Assembly: GCF_024623785.1 (NCBI RefSeq)
Contig: NZ_JANKBZ010000015.1
Coordinates: forward strand, 124,001 to 188,000
Length of the DNA: 64,000 bases
Origin: Archangium lipolyticum
GTDB lineage: Bacteria > Myxococcota > Myxococcia > Myxococcales > Myxococcaceae
Direction: 5' to 3'
Made by a program: the position numbers and the translations under genes. Below, in pieces: positions 57,325-64,000 of this stretch (the stretch's first letter is position 1; each line of letters opens with the position of its first letter). The notes under the pieces were generated by a model. It saw only the letters and a program-made list of their open reading frames with translations, had not been told where the DNA came from and searched no databases.

Positions 57325-57388
57325 TGACGCTGGCGTCAGGGCGGTGGGGCATACTGGAGGACAGTGCCCACGCCGCAGGAGGCTCCGC

Positions 57389-58774
57389 ATGACCGACCCC
57401 ATCCGCCCTGGTCTTTCCTCTCTCCTCCAGACGGCCACCCAGGTGGCACGCACCGTCACCGAGGTCGCGAAGAAGGTGGGTGAGCAGGTGGCGTCCGCGG
57501 CAGGCAACGCCGCGAGCACGGCCCAGAGCGTCTTCGAGGCGGCCAGCAACGCCCCCGCGGTGGTGGACATCAACGGAGGCACACCCGTTTCCCAGGGCCC
57601 GGTGGTGCGGGATGGCGGCCCGGCCACGGCGCTCGCCTGGGCCAACGAGCAGATGGGCAACACCGGCTACGACGACGCGTGCCTCAACTTCGTGATCCGC
57701 GCGTACGCCATCCACCAGACCGCCGCGCGGGCTCCGGAGATCAACTACGCCAGTGGCACCAACAACGCCATCGGCGCCTTCAACGGCCTCCAGCGGGAAG
57801 ACAAGATAAGGACAGCGAGCCCGGAGACCCCGTTGGACGCGGGCGCCATCGTCTTCTTCGATGCCACCGAGGACAACGACGACGATGGCCACATCTGCAT
57901 CGCCACGGGCCGCATGGCGGCGGATGGCACCCCCGAGGTCATCACCTCCGGCTACGAGGGCGCCCCGGGCGTGCACCTCTCGTCCATCGGCCAGCTCATC
58001 GAGGACTCGGGCCCGTACCTCGGCTACACCACGCCCGAGCTGGCCTTCGCGGAGGGGATGTGGCCCGGCCCCTCGGAAACCAGCGCCAGCGGGGGTGCCA
58101 CACCGACCGCCGCGCCCCGGCCCACCACCACTCCGGAGGCCACCAACCCCTCGGGCAACGCGCCCCAGGCGTGGAACAACACCTGCGGCGCCAACGCCCT
58201 CATGTCCATGGAGGCCTCGTTGGATCCGGAACGCGCGGCCCGGTTCGCGACCCTGTCCCCCGACGAGCGCGCGGCCTATGAGGGCGCGGTGCTCCGCTCG
58301 CATCCGGACAACGACGGCTTCGCGCTGGGCTCGCGGCCGGGCGGCACCACGACGGGCTGGGGCCTGGACATGATGAAGTGGCAGGTGAGCGATCGCTTCG
58401 GCGGCGAGGCCACCGTGGTCAAACCCGACAATCGCAAACAGGCCGTGGACGCGCTCACCACGCAGCTGGCCGAGGGCAAGCCCGTGGCCATCGGACTCGC
58501 CGACCACTGGCTGAGCGCCACGGCGATGCGGCAGGGAGAGTCCGGGCAGGAGCTCCTCATCCACGACTCGTGGACGGGCACGAGCGCATGGGTCCCCGAG
58601 GCCGACCTGCGCGAGCCGGGCAGCGGCTGGATGCGCACGTACTTCCCGAACGCGCCCTTCGAGGGGGCCATCCACCTGCTCGTGGCCCCGGGAGAACCCG
58701 TGCTGGAGCCGGACTCCGTCTACCGCGGGACCGAGGCCGGCCTGCTCGAGGGCGTCCGCGCCGAGATGCGCTGA
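57389..58774 (+). CDS. Two-domain cysteine-peptidase-like protein
   Basis: 461 residues, start backed by GCAGGAGG. No signal peptide; an amphipathic helical N-terminus (about 8-55) is followed by two cysteine-hydrolase-like domains. Domain 1 (about 80-215): Cys98 in YDDACLNFVIRAY and His168 in GHICIATG, like CHAP/NlpC amidases. Domain 2 (about 262-435): Cys266 in NNTCGANALMSM, His373 in ADHWLSATA and Asp393 in IHDSWTG, a C39/papain-like triad. The Pro/Thr linker between them is typical of exported effectors. It directly follows the sigma54 activator (64 bp). A cell-wall or peptide effector exported by a non-Sec route is my guess. Confidence 0.82.
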   Translation: MTDPIRPGLSSLLQTATQVARTVTEVAKKVGEQVASAAGNAASTAQSVFEAASNAPAVVDINGGTPVSQGPVVRDGGPATALAWANEQMGNTGYDDACLNFVIRAYAIHQTAARAPEINYASGTNNAIGAFNGLQREDKIRTASPETPLDAGAIVFFDATEDNDDDGHICIATGRMAADGTPEVITSGYEGAPGVHLSSIGQLIEDSGPYLGYTTPELAFAEGMWPGPSETSASGGATPTAAPRPTTTPEATNPSGNAPQAWNNTCGANALMSMEASLDPERAARFATLSPDERAAYEGAVLRSHPDNDGFALGSRPGGTTTGWGLDMMKWQVSDRFGGEATVVKPDNRKQAVDALTTQLAEGKPVAIGLADHWLSATAMRQGESGQELLIHDSWTGTSAWVPEADLREPGSGWMRTYFPNAPFEGAIHLLVAPGEPVLEPDSVYRGTEAGLLEGVRAEMR

Positions 58775-60177: not shown

Positions 60178-60253
60178 GTCCTTGGACCTGAAACGGTCCT
60201 ACGCAGGTTTCCCCACAATCAAAACTGAAGCATCGGAACACACCGGATGCCAC

Positions 60254-60294
60254 GGACAGGTGTCCGGACAGGTGTCCGGGACGGACAGCTGTCC
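60254..60294. repeat. Triple 12-bp palindrome
   Basis: GGACAGGTGTCC at 60254-60265 and 60266-60277 (head-to-tail), then GGACAGCTGTCC at 60283-60294. The last is a perfect palindrome; the first two differ by one base. They lie between the convergent ends of ctaA and the GHKL-ATPase gene. Confidence 0.8.
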
Positions 60295-60358
60295 GGGCCC
60301 TCGACGAGCAGGAACCGCGTTCCGAGACCGATTTCGGAAGTGCGCCCTGCCAGCCGCA

Positions 60359-61804
60359 TCACCCTACCCGCTTCTTCGGGCTCGCGTAGGGCTCCAGGAG
60401 ACCGGGCTGGTCCACCAGACAGCGCAGCGCCCTCCCGGCGAAGCTCTCCAGCCGGTCGATGAAGGCGAAGTCGTGCTCTTCACCCGCCTCGTGCGCCAGC
60501 TCGTGCAGGACGATGCCGAGCGTCCGCGACTCCAGCGGATCATCCAGCCGCACCTGTCCCCGCATGTTCACGCGGAGCACACGGCGCTCCCGGTCGTACT
60601 CCGCGTCCACCTGGGCGCTCGGATCCCTCACCTTGCGCTCGAAGAACTCCACGCGCACCTCGCGCCCGATGAGCTCTCGCGAGAGGCAGCGCACCAGCCC
60701 CACGAAGCGCTCGGCGCGCGCCCCGGGGTTCACCAGCACATCGCGCGGCGGGCCCTCCATCCGCTCCACGTACGCGTCCGCGGACTCCACCACCGTCTCG
60801 AGTTGCTCCAGTGCCGTGAGCGGCATCCCCCGCAGGTCCACCACCTTCGCTCCGAGCTGGCGCGCCCGGTCATCCATTCGCGGTCCCACCGACAGCACCG
60901 CCCGCGCCGGCAGCACCTTCTCCACGTAGGCCTCGATCGCCTCCGGGCCGAGCGTGAAGTGCGAGAGCACCTCCGTCACCCACGCGCCCGACAACTCCTG
61001 CCGGCTCAGCTCGGGCGCCAGCGATTCGAGGAGGATGGCCGCCAGGATGCGCTTGTACGGGTCTCTCGCCGCATCACGCTCGGCGGCCAGCGGGATGCGC
61101 TGCTGCACGTCGACGTGCCACGGGAGGTGATGCGGCTCCACCGGCAGCCCCAGCTCGAACAGGTGCGGCGTCTCACCGGGCCGCGGATGGTACAGGTCCA
61201 CCCGCGTGGCCCGCTCGACGTACCGCTCCACCCCGCGGTGCAGCTCCACCGTCTCCAGCAGGCAGTCCTCCAGCGACTCCTTGACCCTCGGCATCCGCAC
61301 CGTGCGGCCATTGATGATCAGCTCGACGCCCGGCGGTGGGAGCGTGAGGCGCAGCAACTGGACGGCGGCCTCGCGCTCGCTGGCGCTCGTGCGGCGGAAG
61401 AGCCGCAGGCACGTGCCCACCAGGCGCGTGTTGGGCTTCACGTGGCGCCCGGTGTCGTCGAAGACGAGCGTGCGGCCCACCGTCTCCACCTCGGCGCGGT
61501 CGCTCGAGGCGATCATCTCCTTCAGGCCCCGGCCCTTGCGCCCGCGCCACGTGGGCGGCGTGTCCTTCTCCCCGAGGAAGACGGTGAAGGCGAACTCGTC
61601 ACGGGCCAGGCCCGCGGGGGCATCGTCCTCGATGCGGACCTCGTCCTCCTCCAGGCGCACCTTCACCCGGCGGGCGCGCTGGTCGAACGCGTTCTGCAAC
61701 GCCTCGCGAACGAGCTGACCAAGCGGCCGGGCGCGGTTGGAACGCCTCCATCCCTCCTCCGACAACTCGAACCACTCCGAACGGCCGTTCCGGGCCTGGC
61801 GCAT
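60359..61804 (-). CDS. GHKL-type ATPase with C-terminal HExxH metallopeptidase-like motif
   Basis: 481 residues from ATG 61804 (GGAGAG upstream). The N-terminus has the GHKL/Bergerat pattern of Hsp90/MutL/histidine-kinase ATPases: LVREALQNAFDQ (Glu35, Asn38, Asp41), RIEDDAPAG (Asp) and RKGRGLKEM as the Gly-rich lid. A middle region of about 250 residues is unfamiliar. The C-terminus contains HELAHEAGEEHDFAF (His434-x3-His438, His444), a zinc-binding HExxH-x5-H pattern of SprT-like or minigluzincin-type peptidases. This combination is not one I can name. It could be a chaperone-like switch with protease output, possibly in defence. Stands alone. Confidence 0.82.
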   Translation of the reverse strand: MRQARNGRSEWFELSEEGWRRSNRARPLGQLVREALQNAFDQRARRVKVRLEEDEVRIEDDAPAGLARDEFAFTVFLGEKDTPPTWRGRKGRGLKEMIASSDRAEVETVGRTLVFDDTGRHVKPNTRLVGTCLRLFRRTSASEREAAVQLLRLTLPPPGVELIINGRTVRMPRVKESLEDCLLETVELHRGVERYVERATRVDLYHPRPGETPHLFELGLPVEPHHLPWHVDVQQRIPLAAERDAARDPYKRILAAILLESLAPELSRQELSGAWVTEVLSHFTLGPEAIEAYVEKVLPARAVLSVGPRMDDRARQLGAKVVDLRGMPLTALEQLETVVESADAYVERMEGPPRDVLVNPGARAERFVGLVRCLSRELIGREVRVEFFERKVRDPSAQVDAEYDRERRVLRVNMRGQVRLDDPLESRTLGIVLHELAHEAGEEHDFAFIDRLESFAGRALRCLVDQPGLLEPYASPKKRVG

Positions 61805-61901
61805 CGAGACTCTCCGTGCTCCGGGCTCTCGCGAGCGCATGAGCCGCTCGCGAGGCAACCGGACCGGATGAAACACCCGGGGCCGCGAGTCTCTTCCCAG
61901 C

Positions 61902-63350
61902 CTATCTGTCGAGGCCGAGCAGGAAGAGATCGTTCGGGCTCTTCTGGGGCCACTCCTCGCCGTCGAGGATGAGCGAGCCCGACCTGAAGCTGCCGAGGAC
62001 AGAGGGGCGGCCATCCTTCGTCGTCACCACGGACGAGGGCTCGGCGAGGCCCGCGGGGAAGCCGCGCGTCCAGAGAGGCTCGCCGTCGATGCGGTCGAAC
62101 TTCGCGACGAACAGGTTGCTGCTGCCATTGCCCTTGCCCGGCAGCGGCCCCAGGCCGAGATCGTCCCCGTCATGGTAGGAGCCCGTGACGACCACCCCGT
62201 CCTTCTGGTCCATGGCGATGCGCTCGCCGAAGAAGCCAAAGTTCCTCGACCAGCGCTCCTTGCCCTCGCGGGTGTAGGCCACCAGGAAGGCATCACCCTG
62301 AACGGGCCGGCTGGTATCCGAGGTGACGGTGCGTCCCCCGAAGGTGAAGGTGCCCGTGAACGTACCGGTCAGGACGATCCGGTCCCCGTGAGCCGCGACG
62401 TCGCTGGCCCGGCCGGTGCCGTAGCCGGAGAACCGGATGTAGCGCTCCCAGCGCAGCTGTCCGTCCGGAGAGAGCCGGAGGACGAAGGGAGTGGAGCCCT
62501 GGGAGCTGATGCTCCCGCACAGCAGGATGTGGTCCTGACTGTCCACGGTGGCGCCCAGTCCCTCTCCGAATTGCGGAGCGACGTGGACATAGGCCCACAG
62601 GTTCTCCCCCCCGGGGGAGTATTTGGTGACGAAGGCACTGGGACCGAAGAAGCCCTCATCCGGATCCGGCCTCGAGGTGATGCGTCCGCTCCCGAAGTCC
62701 ACCGAGCCCACCAGGGTCCCGGTCATGAGGATGTTGTCGTGGCTGTCCGTCAGGAGGTCGAACACGGAGAGGAACCCGGGGTCGGCCTCCCACGAGCGCT
62801 TCCACAGAAGCCGTCCCTGACGGTCGAACTTCAACAGGTACTCCCCTTCCCAGACGGGGCCATCTCCGAAGTCCACGCCCAGCGCACCGACCGCGATGAG
62901 GATGTTGTGCTTGGAGTCCACGACGACACGGCGGCCGAAGACACCGCCATCCACGCCGGGGCCGGGACCGAAGACCTTCACCCACTCCAGACAGCCGCTC
63001 TCCTGGTCGTAGCGCGCGAGCGCGATCGCCGAGCTGGTCGGGCCTCCCGGTGCCGTCAGGACCCTGTCGCCCAGGTCGATGTTCCCGGTGAAGCTATACA
63101 AGGCGAGCAGGTGTTCCTCCCCATCCTTGACGAGCGTTCCATACTTCTCCGCGGGGAACTCGCCGAGGATGACCGGCTCTCCGGAGATCTGCCGGGCCCA
63201 CCGGATGGCGCCGGTGAGGGGCCCCTGCTCGTGGGCCTGCGCCGTCGTCGCGAGCGTCCCGGGCTCGTCGAGCGCCGGCCCACCGCACGCGGCGAGCCCC
63301 GCGACCAGCAGCAGCGGCAACACACCCCTTCTTCCACTTGAACGTCCCAT
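61902..63350 (-). CDS. Lipoprotein with beta-propeller-like repeats
   Basis: 482 residues from ATG 63350, with GGAGGGGG 8 bp upstream. Lipoprotein signal PLLLVAGLAACGG. The mature part consists of seven or so repeats with the pattern D-x-x-HNILxxGxxxGxxDFGxG and xxxxxFVxKxxxxGxxLW (KHNILIAVGALGVDFGDG, HDNILMTGTLVGSVDFGSG, DRIVLTGTFTGTFTFGG), as in SBBP-type beta-propellers of myxobacteria. It is probably anchored to the outer membrane. No enzyme motif. Preceded at the right edge by a partial amidase-like gene in the same direction. Confidence 0.88.
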   Translation of the reverse strand: MGRSSGRRGVLPLLLVAGLAACGGPALDEPGTLATTAQAHEQGPLTGAIRWARQISGEPVILGEFPAEKYGTLVKDGEEHLLALYSFTGNIDLGDRVLTAPGGPTSSAIALARYDQESGCLEWVKVFGPGPGVDGGVFGRRVVVDSKHNILIAVGALGVDFGDGPVWEGEYLLKFDRQGRLLWKRSWEADPGFLSVFDLLTDSHDNILMTGTLVGSVDFGSGRITSRPDPDEGFFGPSAFVTKYSPGGENLWAYVHVAPQFGEGLGATVDSQDHILLCGSISSQGSTPFVLRLSPDGQLRWERYIRFSGYGTGRASDVAAHGDRIVLTGTFTGTFTFGGRTVTSDTSRPVQGDAFLVAYTREGKERWSRNFGFFGERIAMDQKDGVVVTGSYHDGDDLGLGPLPGKGNGSSNLFVAKFDRIDGEPLWTRGFPAGLAEPSSVVTTKDGRPSVLGSFRSGSLILDGEEWPQKSPNDLFLLGLDR

Positions 63351-63504: not shown

Positions 63505-64000
63505 TCAGCGCGGCCAGCGGTAGCCGTGGACCTCGTAGGAGCCGAGCGGGAACTTGGAGATCTTCACGGAGTCGCTCTGGTTGCCGCCCAGCAGCTCGAT
63601 GTGGGTCGCCGTCGAGCCGACGTAGAACGCGACATGGAACCCCGTCGAGGAGCCCGTGGCGGCGTCGCTCTGGGCGCCCTTGCGCTTGATGACGGTGATG
63701 GCCCCATAGCGCGGCGAGGAGAGGGGCTCGCCCCACTCCAGCCAGCTCCTGGCCTGCGCGTTGTTCGTCCCGGAGTATCCCGCCTTCTTCATGACCCAGT
63801 TGACGAACGAGGAGCACCAGGGCGTCTCGTCATCCTTGGCGCGGAGGCTCGTCGCGCCGTGGTACTCGACGATGCGGCTGTTGTTCTGACCCGCCCCTTT
63901 CTCCTCGCTCTCGCCCACCTCGCCGGAGGCGATGGTCATCCACGGTGCGCGCCCCGCTTCCGAGGGCTCCGCGGACGGAGCCGCGAACGCCTGCCTTGAG
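63505..64000 (-). CDS. TIGR02594-type putative amidase/peptidase (N-terminus outside window)
   Basis: The frame stays open to the window edge, so the N-terminus is missing. The visible 165 residues contain PWMTIASGEVGESEEKGAGQ, KDDETPWCSSFVNWVMKKAGY with the catalytic Cys, ARSWLEWGEPLSSPRYGAITVI and TGFHVAFYVGS with the His. This is the TIGR02594/CHAP-like family of cell-wall or peptide hydrolases found with phages and secretion effectors. Upstream of Met at 63937 the residues are a Pro/Ala-rich linker, implying a larger modular protein. The stop is at 63505. Confidence 0.85.
   Translation of the reverse strand, partial: SRQAFAAPSAEPSEAGRAPWMTIASGEVGESEEKGAGQNNSRIVEYHGATSLRAKDDETPWCSSFVNWVMKKAGYSGTNNAQARSWLEWGEPLSSPRYGAITVIKRKGAQSDAATGSSTGFHVAFYVGSTATHIELLGGNQSDSVKISKFPLGSYEVHGYRWPR

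Follow-up and report, generated by a model that had tools for sequence, protein, structure and literature searches.

A GHKL ATPase domain and a zincin-like domain in one protein of Archangium lipolyticum: a candidate ATP-gated metalloprotease

Can a GHKL-type ATPase be coupled to a metalloprotease within a single polypeptide chain? The question is raised by a gene of the myxobacterium Archangium lipolyticum (host genome of 12.6 Mb in 75 contigs) that occupies positions 60359-61804 (minus strand), stop codon included, of a 64,000-nucleotide stretch of contig NZ_JANKBZ010000015.1; the whole of this stretch is termed the window. The gene encodes a protein of 481 amino acids. A first-pass annotation made from the sequence alone had given the same boundaries and length, leaving the strand unstated, and had drawn attention to Bergerat-fold ATPase residues near the N-terminus and a HELAH-x5-H motif near the C-terminus. 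Both sites are conserved in very distant relatives, within a chain whose predicted folds are, in order, a GHKL ATPase domain, a GHKL-type middle region and a zincin domain. We suggest that ATP may control proteolysis in these proteins.

Conservation of the two active sites

The window protein was aligned with 99 relatives (alignment A2, n = 100), drawn from 120 open reading frames (ORFs) with the removal of 17 near-duplicates and four broken or truncated rows. All residue counts below refer to A2 and include the window protein. Two Archangium rows are 88-89% identical to the window protein, three rows from metagenome-assembled genomes (MAGs) of Myxococcota or Deltaproteobacteria are 44-48% identical, and the remaining rows are 21-31% identical. 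The residues N38, D41, G65, R87, G88, G93, K95, G130, E217, G219, Q235, R243 and H438 are invariant.

The ATP site has the elements expected of the GHKL superfamily. The N-box (E34-A-L-Q-N38-A-F-D41; 61682..61705, minus strand, as for all features of the gene) contains the invariant N38 and D41, both numbered correctly in the first-pass annotation. The catalytic glutamate had been placed at residue 35; it is residue 34, which is E in 95 of the 100 rows and D in five. The G1 box (D61-A-P-A-G65; 61610..61624) begins with a residue that is D in 91 rows, N in five, E in two, and T and S in one each. In the ATP lid (K80...R87-G88...G93-x-K95; 61520..61567) all the named residues are invariant apart from K80, which is kept in 97 rows.

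At the other end of the chain the HELAH sequence (residues 434-438; 60491..60505) is the presumed zinc-binding and catalytic motif, with H434 kept in 98 rows, E435 in 99 and H438 in all 100. H444 (60473..60475; 98 rows) is the presumed third zinc ligand, and aligns with the downstream histidine of Wss1 and abylysin. These four residues are the HELAH-x5-H of the earlier annotation. The spacing HExxHx5H is found in 74 rows, x4 in 16 and other spacings in seven, and the regular expression finds none in three. A looser expression (HExxHx4-7[HED]) matches 115 of the 120 raw ORFs. It fails on five: L100 and L104; L055, whose motif is in another frame; L059, whose ORF stops early; and L088, which is at a contig end.

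If position 34 may be E or D and position 61 D, N or E, 98 rows have a complete ATPase core, 98 have the full zinc set and 96 have both. Where E34 and D61 must be unchanged both sites are complete in 85 rows and 15 depart. The presence of GHKL and zincin motifs in one chain, as first proposed from a single sequence, thus holds across very distant relatives, and the zinc ligands are lost in just two of the 100 rows. In the 13 myxobacterial orthologues, the window copy included, all 14 residues examined are identical. A protein of the same composition would be expected by chance to contain 0.03 HExxH and 0.0006 HExxHx5H motifs, and the conservation of the zinc motif across A2 rules out a chance occurrence. 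A smaller alignment (A3, 89 rows) was made without the two rows that have lost zinc ligands and without nine others, so that the invariance of the zinc residues in A3 does not count as independent evidence.

Predicted folds of the ATPase and zincin parts

Neither Pfam nor NCBIfam gave the window protein a match above cut-off. The Pfam, PHROGs and PADLOC scans covered selected sets of ten proteins; for the window protein, the Pfam families HATPase_c (E 0.0024) and HATPase_c_3 (E 0.0031) fell below cut-off, and none of the four Pfam families listed is of the AAA+ type. A separate match to P_loop_sacsin (1.5e-4) was likewise below cut-off. The profile of A2 matches MutL structures first, at 0.005. 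These weak matches, together with the structural model, define the GHKL/Bergerat ATPase domain at about residues 10-170 (61295..61777).

The AlphaFold2 model of the full protein, calculated on A2, has a pLDDT (predicted local distance difference test) of 93.2 and a pTM (predicted template modelling score) of 0.83. In a Foldseek comparison of this model with the PDB the first 31 matches are all Hsp90-type (TRAP1, Hsp90, HtpG and GRP94), from E 9.5e-13, and among the matches listed MutL, MORC and topoisomerase II rank after them. In VIA-align, where rows within one unit of Z count as tied, the top row is TRAP1 (4z1i_B; Z 16.3, root mean square deviation 7.0 Å over 316 residues, covering 1-348 of the model).

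The first-pass annotation had called the middle of the protein unfamiliar. This no longer stands, as the region aligns with the S5 fold and following region of GHKL ATPases. The S5-fold or large part of the GHKL middle region lies at about residues 171-266 (61007..61294) and aligns with the ATPase regions of TRAP1, topoisomerase II, MutL and MORC2. It contains P238-L-x-x-x-R243 (61076..61093), a possible counterpart of the PLNxSR loop of Hsp90, the arginine of which we take to be the catalytic arginine of that protein. Around the invariant R243, P[LM]x..R is found in 93 rows and the strict PLN..R in 53; LNxSR is present in all ten HtpG sequences examined from genomes of the phylum. The following part, at about residues 267-351 (60752..61006), consists of helices and a small alpha-beta-alpha unit. 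It was assigned from the alignment with 4z1i_B and the secondary structure, and its position presumably corresponds to that in the Hsp90 middle domain. Most of the topoisomerase II and MutL rows in VIA-align stop at model residue 267-274, and some gyrase, ParE, topoisomerase and MORC2 rows extend to 300-348, one ParE row covering 4-348; the small extra unit therefore leans towards Hsp90, though not decisively.

The order GHKL, S5, small alpha-beta-alpha, which we take to be the layout of Hsp90, is probably shared with Hsp90, HtpG and TRAP1, and the conserved arginine is in a PLNxxR-like loop. The ATP site has the features of the Hsp90 family, i.e. the catalytic glutamate, the asparagine, the aspartate and the glycine motifs. 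There are also differences. A predicted zincin stands where Hsp90 has its C-terminal dimer domain, and the protein has 481 amino acids, compared with the 621-735 of the ten HtpG ORFs aligned. PF00183 (Hsp90) is not listed for the window protein at E up to 10, most matches above 0.1 being filtered. The GHKL and S5 module is equally a likeness to MutL, paraMORC and MORC, and there are sequence matches to MutL. The MORC S5 motif, given as GhXhhpXXRhl in the part of PMC2292703 available to us, occurs in none of the 100 rows, and the word 'peptidase' is not found in that part of the paper. Restriction-modification neighbours of the paraMORC type do not recur around the family loci, where single methyltransferase genes lie nearby in places. 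The middle region is of GHKL type and, judged from the models, is probably Hsp90-like.

The zincin domain (residues 352-481; 60362..60751) was also modelled separately, these C-terminal 130 residues giving a pLDDT of 94.5. The secondary structure assigned to the model by DSSP has HELAH on a helix (426-440) preceded by three strands, with H444 just ahead of a further helix (446-465). The motif is therefore predicted to be carried by a helix of the kind that zincins use, and not by a non-catalytic one; the latter, like loss of the motif in homologues, would have told against the earlier annotation. The best VIA-align match of the lone domain is Wss1 (5xbn; Z 7.9, 2.9 Å, 103 residues), tied with abylysin and selecase (Z 7.5 each), and 6mdx and 6mdw ('Mechanism of protease dependent DPC repair') have Z of 6.5 and 6.4, respectively. 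Rows 1 to 25 are all zincin-fold proteins, either as named in their titles or as generally classified; row 26 is the C-terminal domain of HtpG (Z 5.0, 5.4 Å). A profile of the domain matches myroilysin (0.00065), Wss1 (0.0026) and proabylysin (0.0043), with HExxH aligned on HExxH, the best single stretch against Wss1 being only 0.095. Like Wss1 and other WLM proteins, and the minigluzincins abylysin and selecase, the domain has HExxH with a downstream histidine in a predicted zincin fold; it differs from Wss1/WLM in falling below the WLM cut-off (12.1 bits compared with 26, for residues 430-460 of the window protein) and in being fused to a GHKL ATPase.

Occurrence, selection and genomic setting

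Within the taxonomic family of the host the gene is found in 13 of 58 genomes, the host's own included, and in three of 26 genera; the other 12 copies are 88-98% identical to that of the window. Searching 195 genomes of the phylum with the A2 profile gave some match in 62, at full length in the same 13; in the remaining 49 the match was partial and almost always to the GHKL domain. Beyond these genomes, tblastn found the gene in six plasmid records and in a single phage record, of 485 kb. By pattern searches, 40 loci were obtained from genomes and 96 from viral contigs, 80 of the latter being kept. Just one of 50,697 isolate phage records has the family, which is common on contigs of uncultured phages. 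The label 'viral' is that assigned by IMG/VR itself. Since the protein of one such contig (L073, IMGVR_UViG_2887198475_000005) is the same as that encoded by plasmid RHOApd of Rhodovastum atsumiense, some viral labels may belong to plasmids.

In a maximum-likelihood tree of 103 rows, whose root was positioned for drawing only, the window protein falls in a set of seven from cellular assemblies (support 95), comprising Archangium, MAGs of Myxococcota or Deltaproteobacteria and one actinomycete MAG. A separate set of 83 rows (support 98) contains all 62 viral rows and 18 from genomes. The sole row assigned to archaea (L028, from a 4.2-kb MAG contig) clusters with viral rows, and its source may not be archaeal.

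The window copy compared with its 12 myxobacterial orthologues has ratios of nonsynonymous to synonymous substitution (dN/dS) of 0.05-0.20. These values support the minus-strand reading, and an antisense ORF on the plus strand (60182-61972) was rejected. They also indicate that the myxobacterial copies are under purifying selection.

The gene does not keep constant company. The upstream neighbour, a lipoprotein-like gene, has its stop codon 97 bases ahead of the start codon, and downstream on the opposite strand is a gene that by eye resembles haem A synthase; neither adjoins the gene in the 12 related genomes, within the 8 kb examined. In L141, the nearest relative, the haem A synthase gene is about 6 kb from the GHKL-zincin gene; L151 encodes, about 4 kb away, a stretch with 25% identity to the lipoprotein-like protein. 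By eye, ORFs resembling CHAP peptidases occur in the window at 57344-58774 and 63505-63939; the counterpart of the latter is directly upstream of the gene in L141. Each of the groups L142-144, L146/148/151/152 and L147/149/150 has a shared neighbourhood of its own, differing from each other and from that of the window and L141, and L145 shares none.

Although the neighbours differ, a block of about 95 bp immediately upstream (GGGAAGAG...; 61805..61898, minus strand) can be aligned in most of the 13 orthologues. The sequence GGGAAGAG is identical in all 13, and the rest of the block is missing or short in L145 and L148. Set against HtpG, the gene has diverged less in the one pair outside the genus (with G015; dS 0.35 compared with 0.46, dN 0.07 compared with 0.14) and more in five of five pairs within the genus. 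The single outside-genus pair gives a hint of transfer between genera. The varied neighbourhoods, the upstream block and the HtpG comparison together make movement of a single gene possible, so that the gene may travel singly, accompanied by its upstream region. In L142 the region upstream of the gene includes a sequence of 41-44 bp (L142:7837-7880) that has at least 12 matches in three related genomes at 84-88% identity, and is perhaps a short interspersed repeat.

No recurrent partner gene was found on clustering 2131 ORFs, homologues included, around 120 loci. Considering clusters present in at least four loci, the largest other neighbour clusters occur in seven of 102 non-duplicate loci, at scattered offsets. 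A set of 139 same-strand neighbours in viral loci, drawn from 200 candidates, matched 94 PHROG and 31 Pfam families, and among the best 25 of each none matched more than four proteins. A conserved operon or partner was therefore rejected, and the lack of a recurrent partner gene suggests that the protein acts alone. It contains no strongly hydrophobic stretch, the maximum hydropathy over 19 residues being 1.19.

Further GHKL proteins with zincin-like C ends are encoded beside members of the family or in other Myxococcota. A second family, of phage proteins (phrog_6077; L070:5504-6883, L074:6085-7401, L035:5017-6357, L134:1586-2947 and L213-L228), has a GHKL ATPase ending in HExxHx9-11H in 15 of 16 loci. 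It is like the window-type family (family 1) in this arrangement, and differs in forming its own sequence group with a longer spacing to the third histidine. The family-1 member L061 matches the phrog_6077 profile over residues 62-355, from which the two families are likely to be distant kin. The match of that profile to the window protein is slight (E 0.41 over 29 residues); four of seven family-1 relatives match it at 1.5e-3 to 4.4e-6 and three not at all, and none of the eight members scanned (the window protein and seven relatives) clearly belongs to a PHROG. A full-length family-1 gene is present on five of the 16 family-2 contigs, or two of 13 without the seed contigs L213, L214 and L225. 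In the reverse search, covering 50 of the 64 family-1 contigs first listed (three seeds and 11 others being omitted), six matched A6 at all and one at full length. Co-occurrence of the two families is weak.

A further family, in Myxococcota, has 619-662 amino acids, with HATPase matches, a C-terminal HELAH and WLM matches at E 3.5e-4 and 9.8e-4. It is encoded by the second of two adjacent GHKL genes (L203:1060-5180 and L204:4059-8259), the pair lying by eye just upstream of NADH dehydrogenase-like genes. Finally, in a phage family (L077:10319-11746, L097:7241-8680, L098:10321-11760, L108:9765-11210 and L031:3798-5318; L108 matches phrog_8203) the glycine box is ahead of the N-box and a C-terminal EExxH replaces HExxH. 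This motif order resembles a circular permutation.

Possible function of the GHKL-zincin proteins

In GHKL-S5 proteins ATP closes a dimeric clamp, and an arginine or lysine of S5 completes the site. Because of this behaviour, and that of zincins, we propose that the protein is a cytosolic, stand-alone metalloprotease gated by ATP, in which an Hsp90-like GHKL clamp feeds the C-terminal zincin; we would put the probability of this reading at about 0.55. Binding of ATP would close and dimerise the clamp, made up of the GHKL domain, S5 with Arg243 acting in trans, and the small alpha-beta-alpha unit. The closed clamp would grip a folded or complexed client, and turnover of ATP would remodel it or present a flexible segment to the Wss1-like zincin, which is positioned where Hsp90 has its C-terminal domain and would cleave it. 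We infer from the conserved residues that both sites are active; by analogy, control of the protease by ATP is plausible. Damaged or regulatory proteins and complexes, as for Hsp90, would be the most probable clients, followed by protein stuck on DNA, as for Wss1/SPRTN. The ATP-gated protease is favoured by the recurrence of the GHKL-zincin pairing, in family 2 (15 of 16 loci) and in the Myxococcota family. FtsH and other AAA+ proteases likewise combine ATPase and zincin in a single polypeptide; the motor here differs in being a GHKL clamp.

A number of observations weigh against this proposal. On the Hsp90 side, African swine fever virus topoisomerase II (Z 15.5) and MutL tie with TRAP1 in VIA-align, so that TRAP1 cannot be separated from the viral topoisomerase; the multi-domain Hsp90 fits have root mean square deviations of 5.5-11.7 Å; and HHalign joins the family to HtpG over the GHKL part alone (118 columns, probability 46, E 0.0002), with no profile match to HtpG found beyond it. 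On the protease side, the Z of 7.9 with Wss1 is just under the VIA-align caution line of 8, and Foldseek gave the lone zincin model no match below E 0.001, the best being 0.0042. When seven relatives were scanned for WLM at E up to 1 only two matched, both below the cut-off of 26 bits (L023 at 25.4 and L026 at 20.6), the other five having no match. Selection is also weaker on the zincin, the median dN/dS over 78 pairs of the 13 orthologues being 0.11 for GHKL and S5, 0.18 for the small middle part and 0.22 for the zincin. Lastly, L100 and L104 have lost zinc ligands while retaining the GHKL motifs, with N at position 61 in L104.

The faster evolution of the zincin and those two rows would also suit an ATP-dependent remodeller or chaperone whose zincin fold binds metal or a ligand without cutting, as would the EExxH of the permuted family. 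We think this unlikely, given that 98 of 100 highly divergent sequences retain all four of H434, E435, H438 and H444, and 99 the catalytic glutamate. A different kind of clamp is a less improbable alternative, though we still regard it as doubtful. The GHKL-S5 part could encircle DNA, like MutL, MORC or a topoisomerase, leaving the zincin to remove stuck or crosslinked proteins like Wss1 or SPRTN; in phages its task would be removal of host proteins or repair of the phage DNA. Wss1 is indeed the best solved match of the zincin, with 6mdx and 6mdw at Z of about 6.5, but the minigluzincins score equally. According to the abstract of PMC4559962, Wss1 and Spartan belong to the minigluzincin family, so likeness to Wss1 is not by itself proof of a role on DNA. 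The first match of the A2 profile to MutL, and the VIA-align tie of topoisomerase II and MutL with Hsp90, fit a DNA clamp; yet the MORC S5 motif is absent throughout A2 and a DNA-binding domain was not identified in the GHKL-zincin protein. Some neighbours in phage, plasmid and MAG loci are DnaB, topoisomerase, primosomal and dUTPase genes, with ThyX and thymidylate kinase by eye, but replication-type families occur just once each among the 139 neighbours scanned.

The first-pass annotation had also raised the ideas of a quality-control factor and of a defence factor. A role in quality control or remodelling is possible; the idea of defence has fared poorly. A GHKL domain that senses infection, with a zincin that cuts a target protein, could serve in anti-phage defence or in counter-defence, and for this there are the patchy distribution, the different chromosomal places in different myxobacterial clades, the hint of transfer between genera, the occurrence on large phage contigs and one plasmid copy a few genes from SIR2-HerA. 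The window protein, however, matches no PADLOC family, no defence neighbours recur around the family loci, and many members are on phage contigs. All six family-1 relatives scanned match TmtA only, over the GHKL part (best E from 0.0062 to 3.7e-6). Moreover, the tree clade of the window comes from cellular assemblies, although one of its contigs (L026) looks phage-like by eye, with a ribonucleotide reductase-like gene among others. We consider a role in defence very improbable. Another plasmid copy, in Picosynechococcus (L003), lies between annotated diadenylate cyclase and CHAT-TPR genes, with a further CHAT gene nearby.

No description of a GHKL-zincin fusion was found in searches of an open-access library, subscription papers and preprints being outside its scope. 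In the available part of a review of jumbo phages (PMC7824862) rIIA is described as a GHKL protein whose C end varies; SprT-like zincins are mentioned separately, and the fusion is not found in that part.

To our knowledge, ATP-driven proteases are generally regarded as AAA+ machines. We see an even chance that the proteins with an N-terminal GHKL domain and a C-terminal zincin, which form several bacterial and phage families, are a new class of energy-dependent protease that uses a GHKL/Hsp90-type clamp in place of an AAA+ motor. Several VIA-align rows match the full model to TRAP1 over almost its whole length, and the lone zincin model finds the C-terminal domain of HtpG, though at a Z of just 5.0; on this basis one can imagine that the zincin occupies the place of the Hsp90 C-terminal domain and may be its ancestor or replacement; we regard this as highly speculative, with little likelihood of being correct. 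If the ATP-gated protease proposal is true, the combination of an Hsp90/MutL-type clamp with a Wss1-type protease in about 480 residues would be a different solution to energy-dependent proteolysis, and one small enough for biochemistry. The family may reveal the way in which host proteins are remodelled by large phages, and with it one could test directly whether a protease can be fed by an Hsp90-like clamp.

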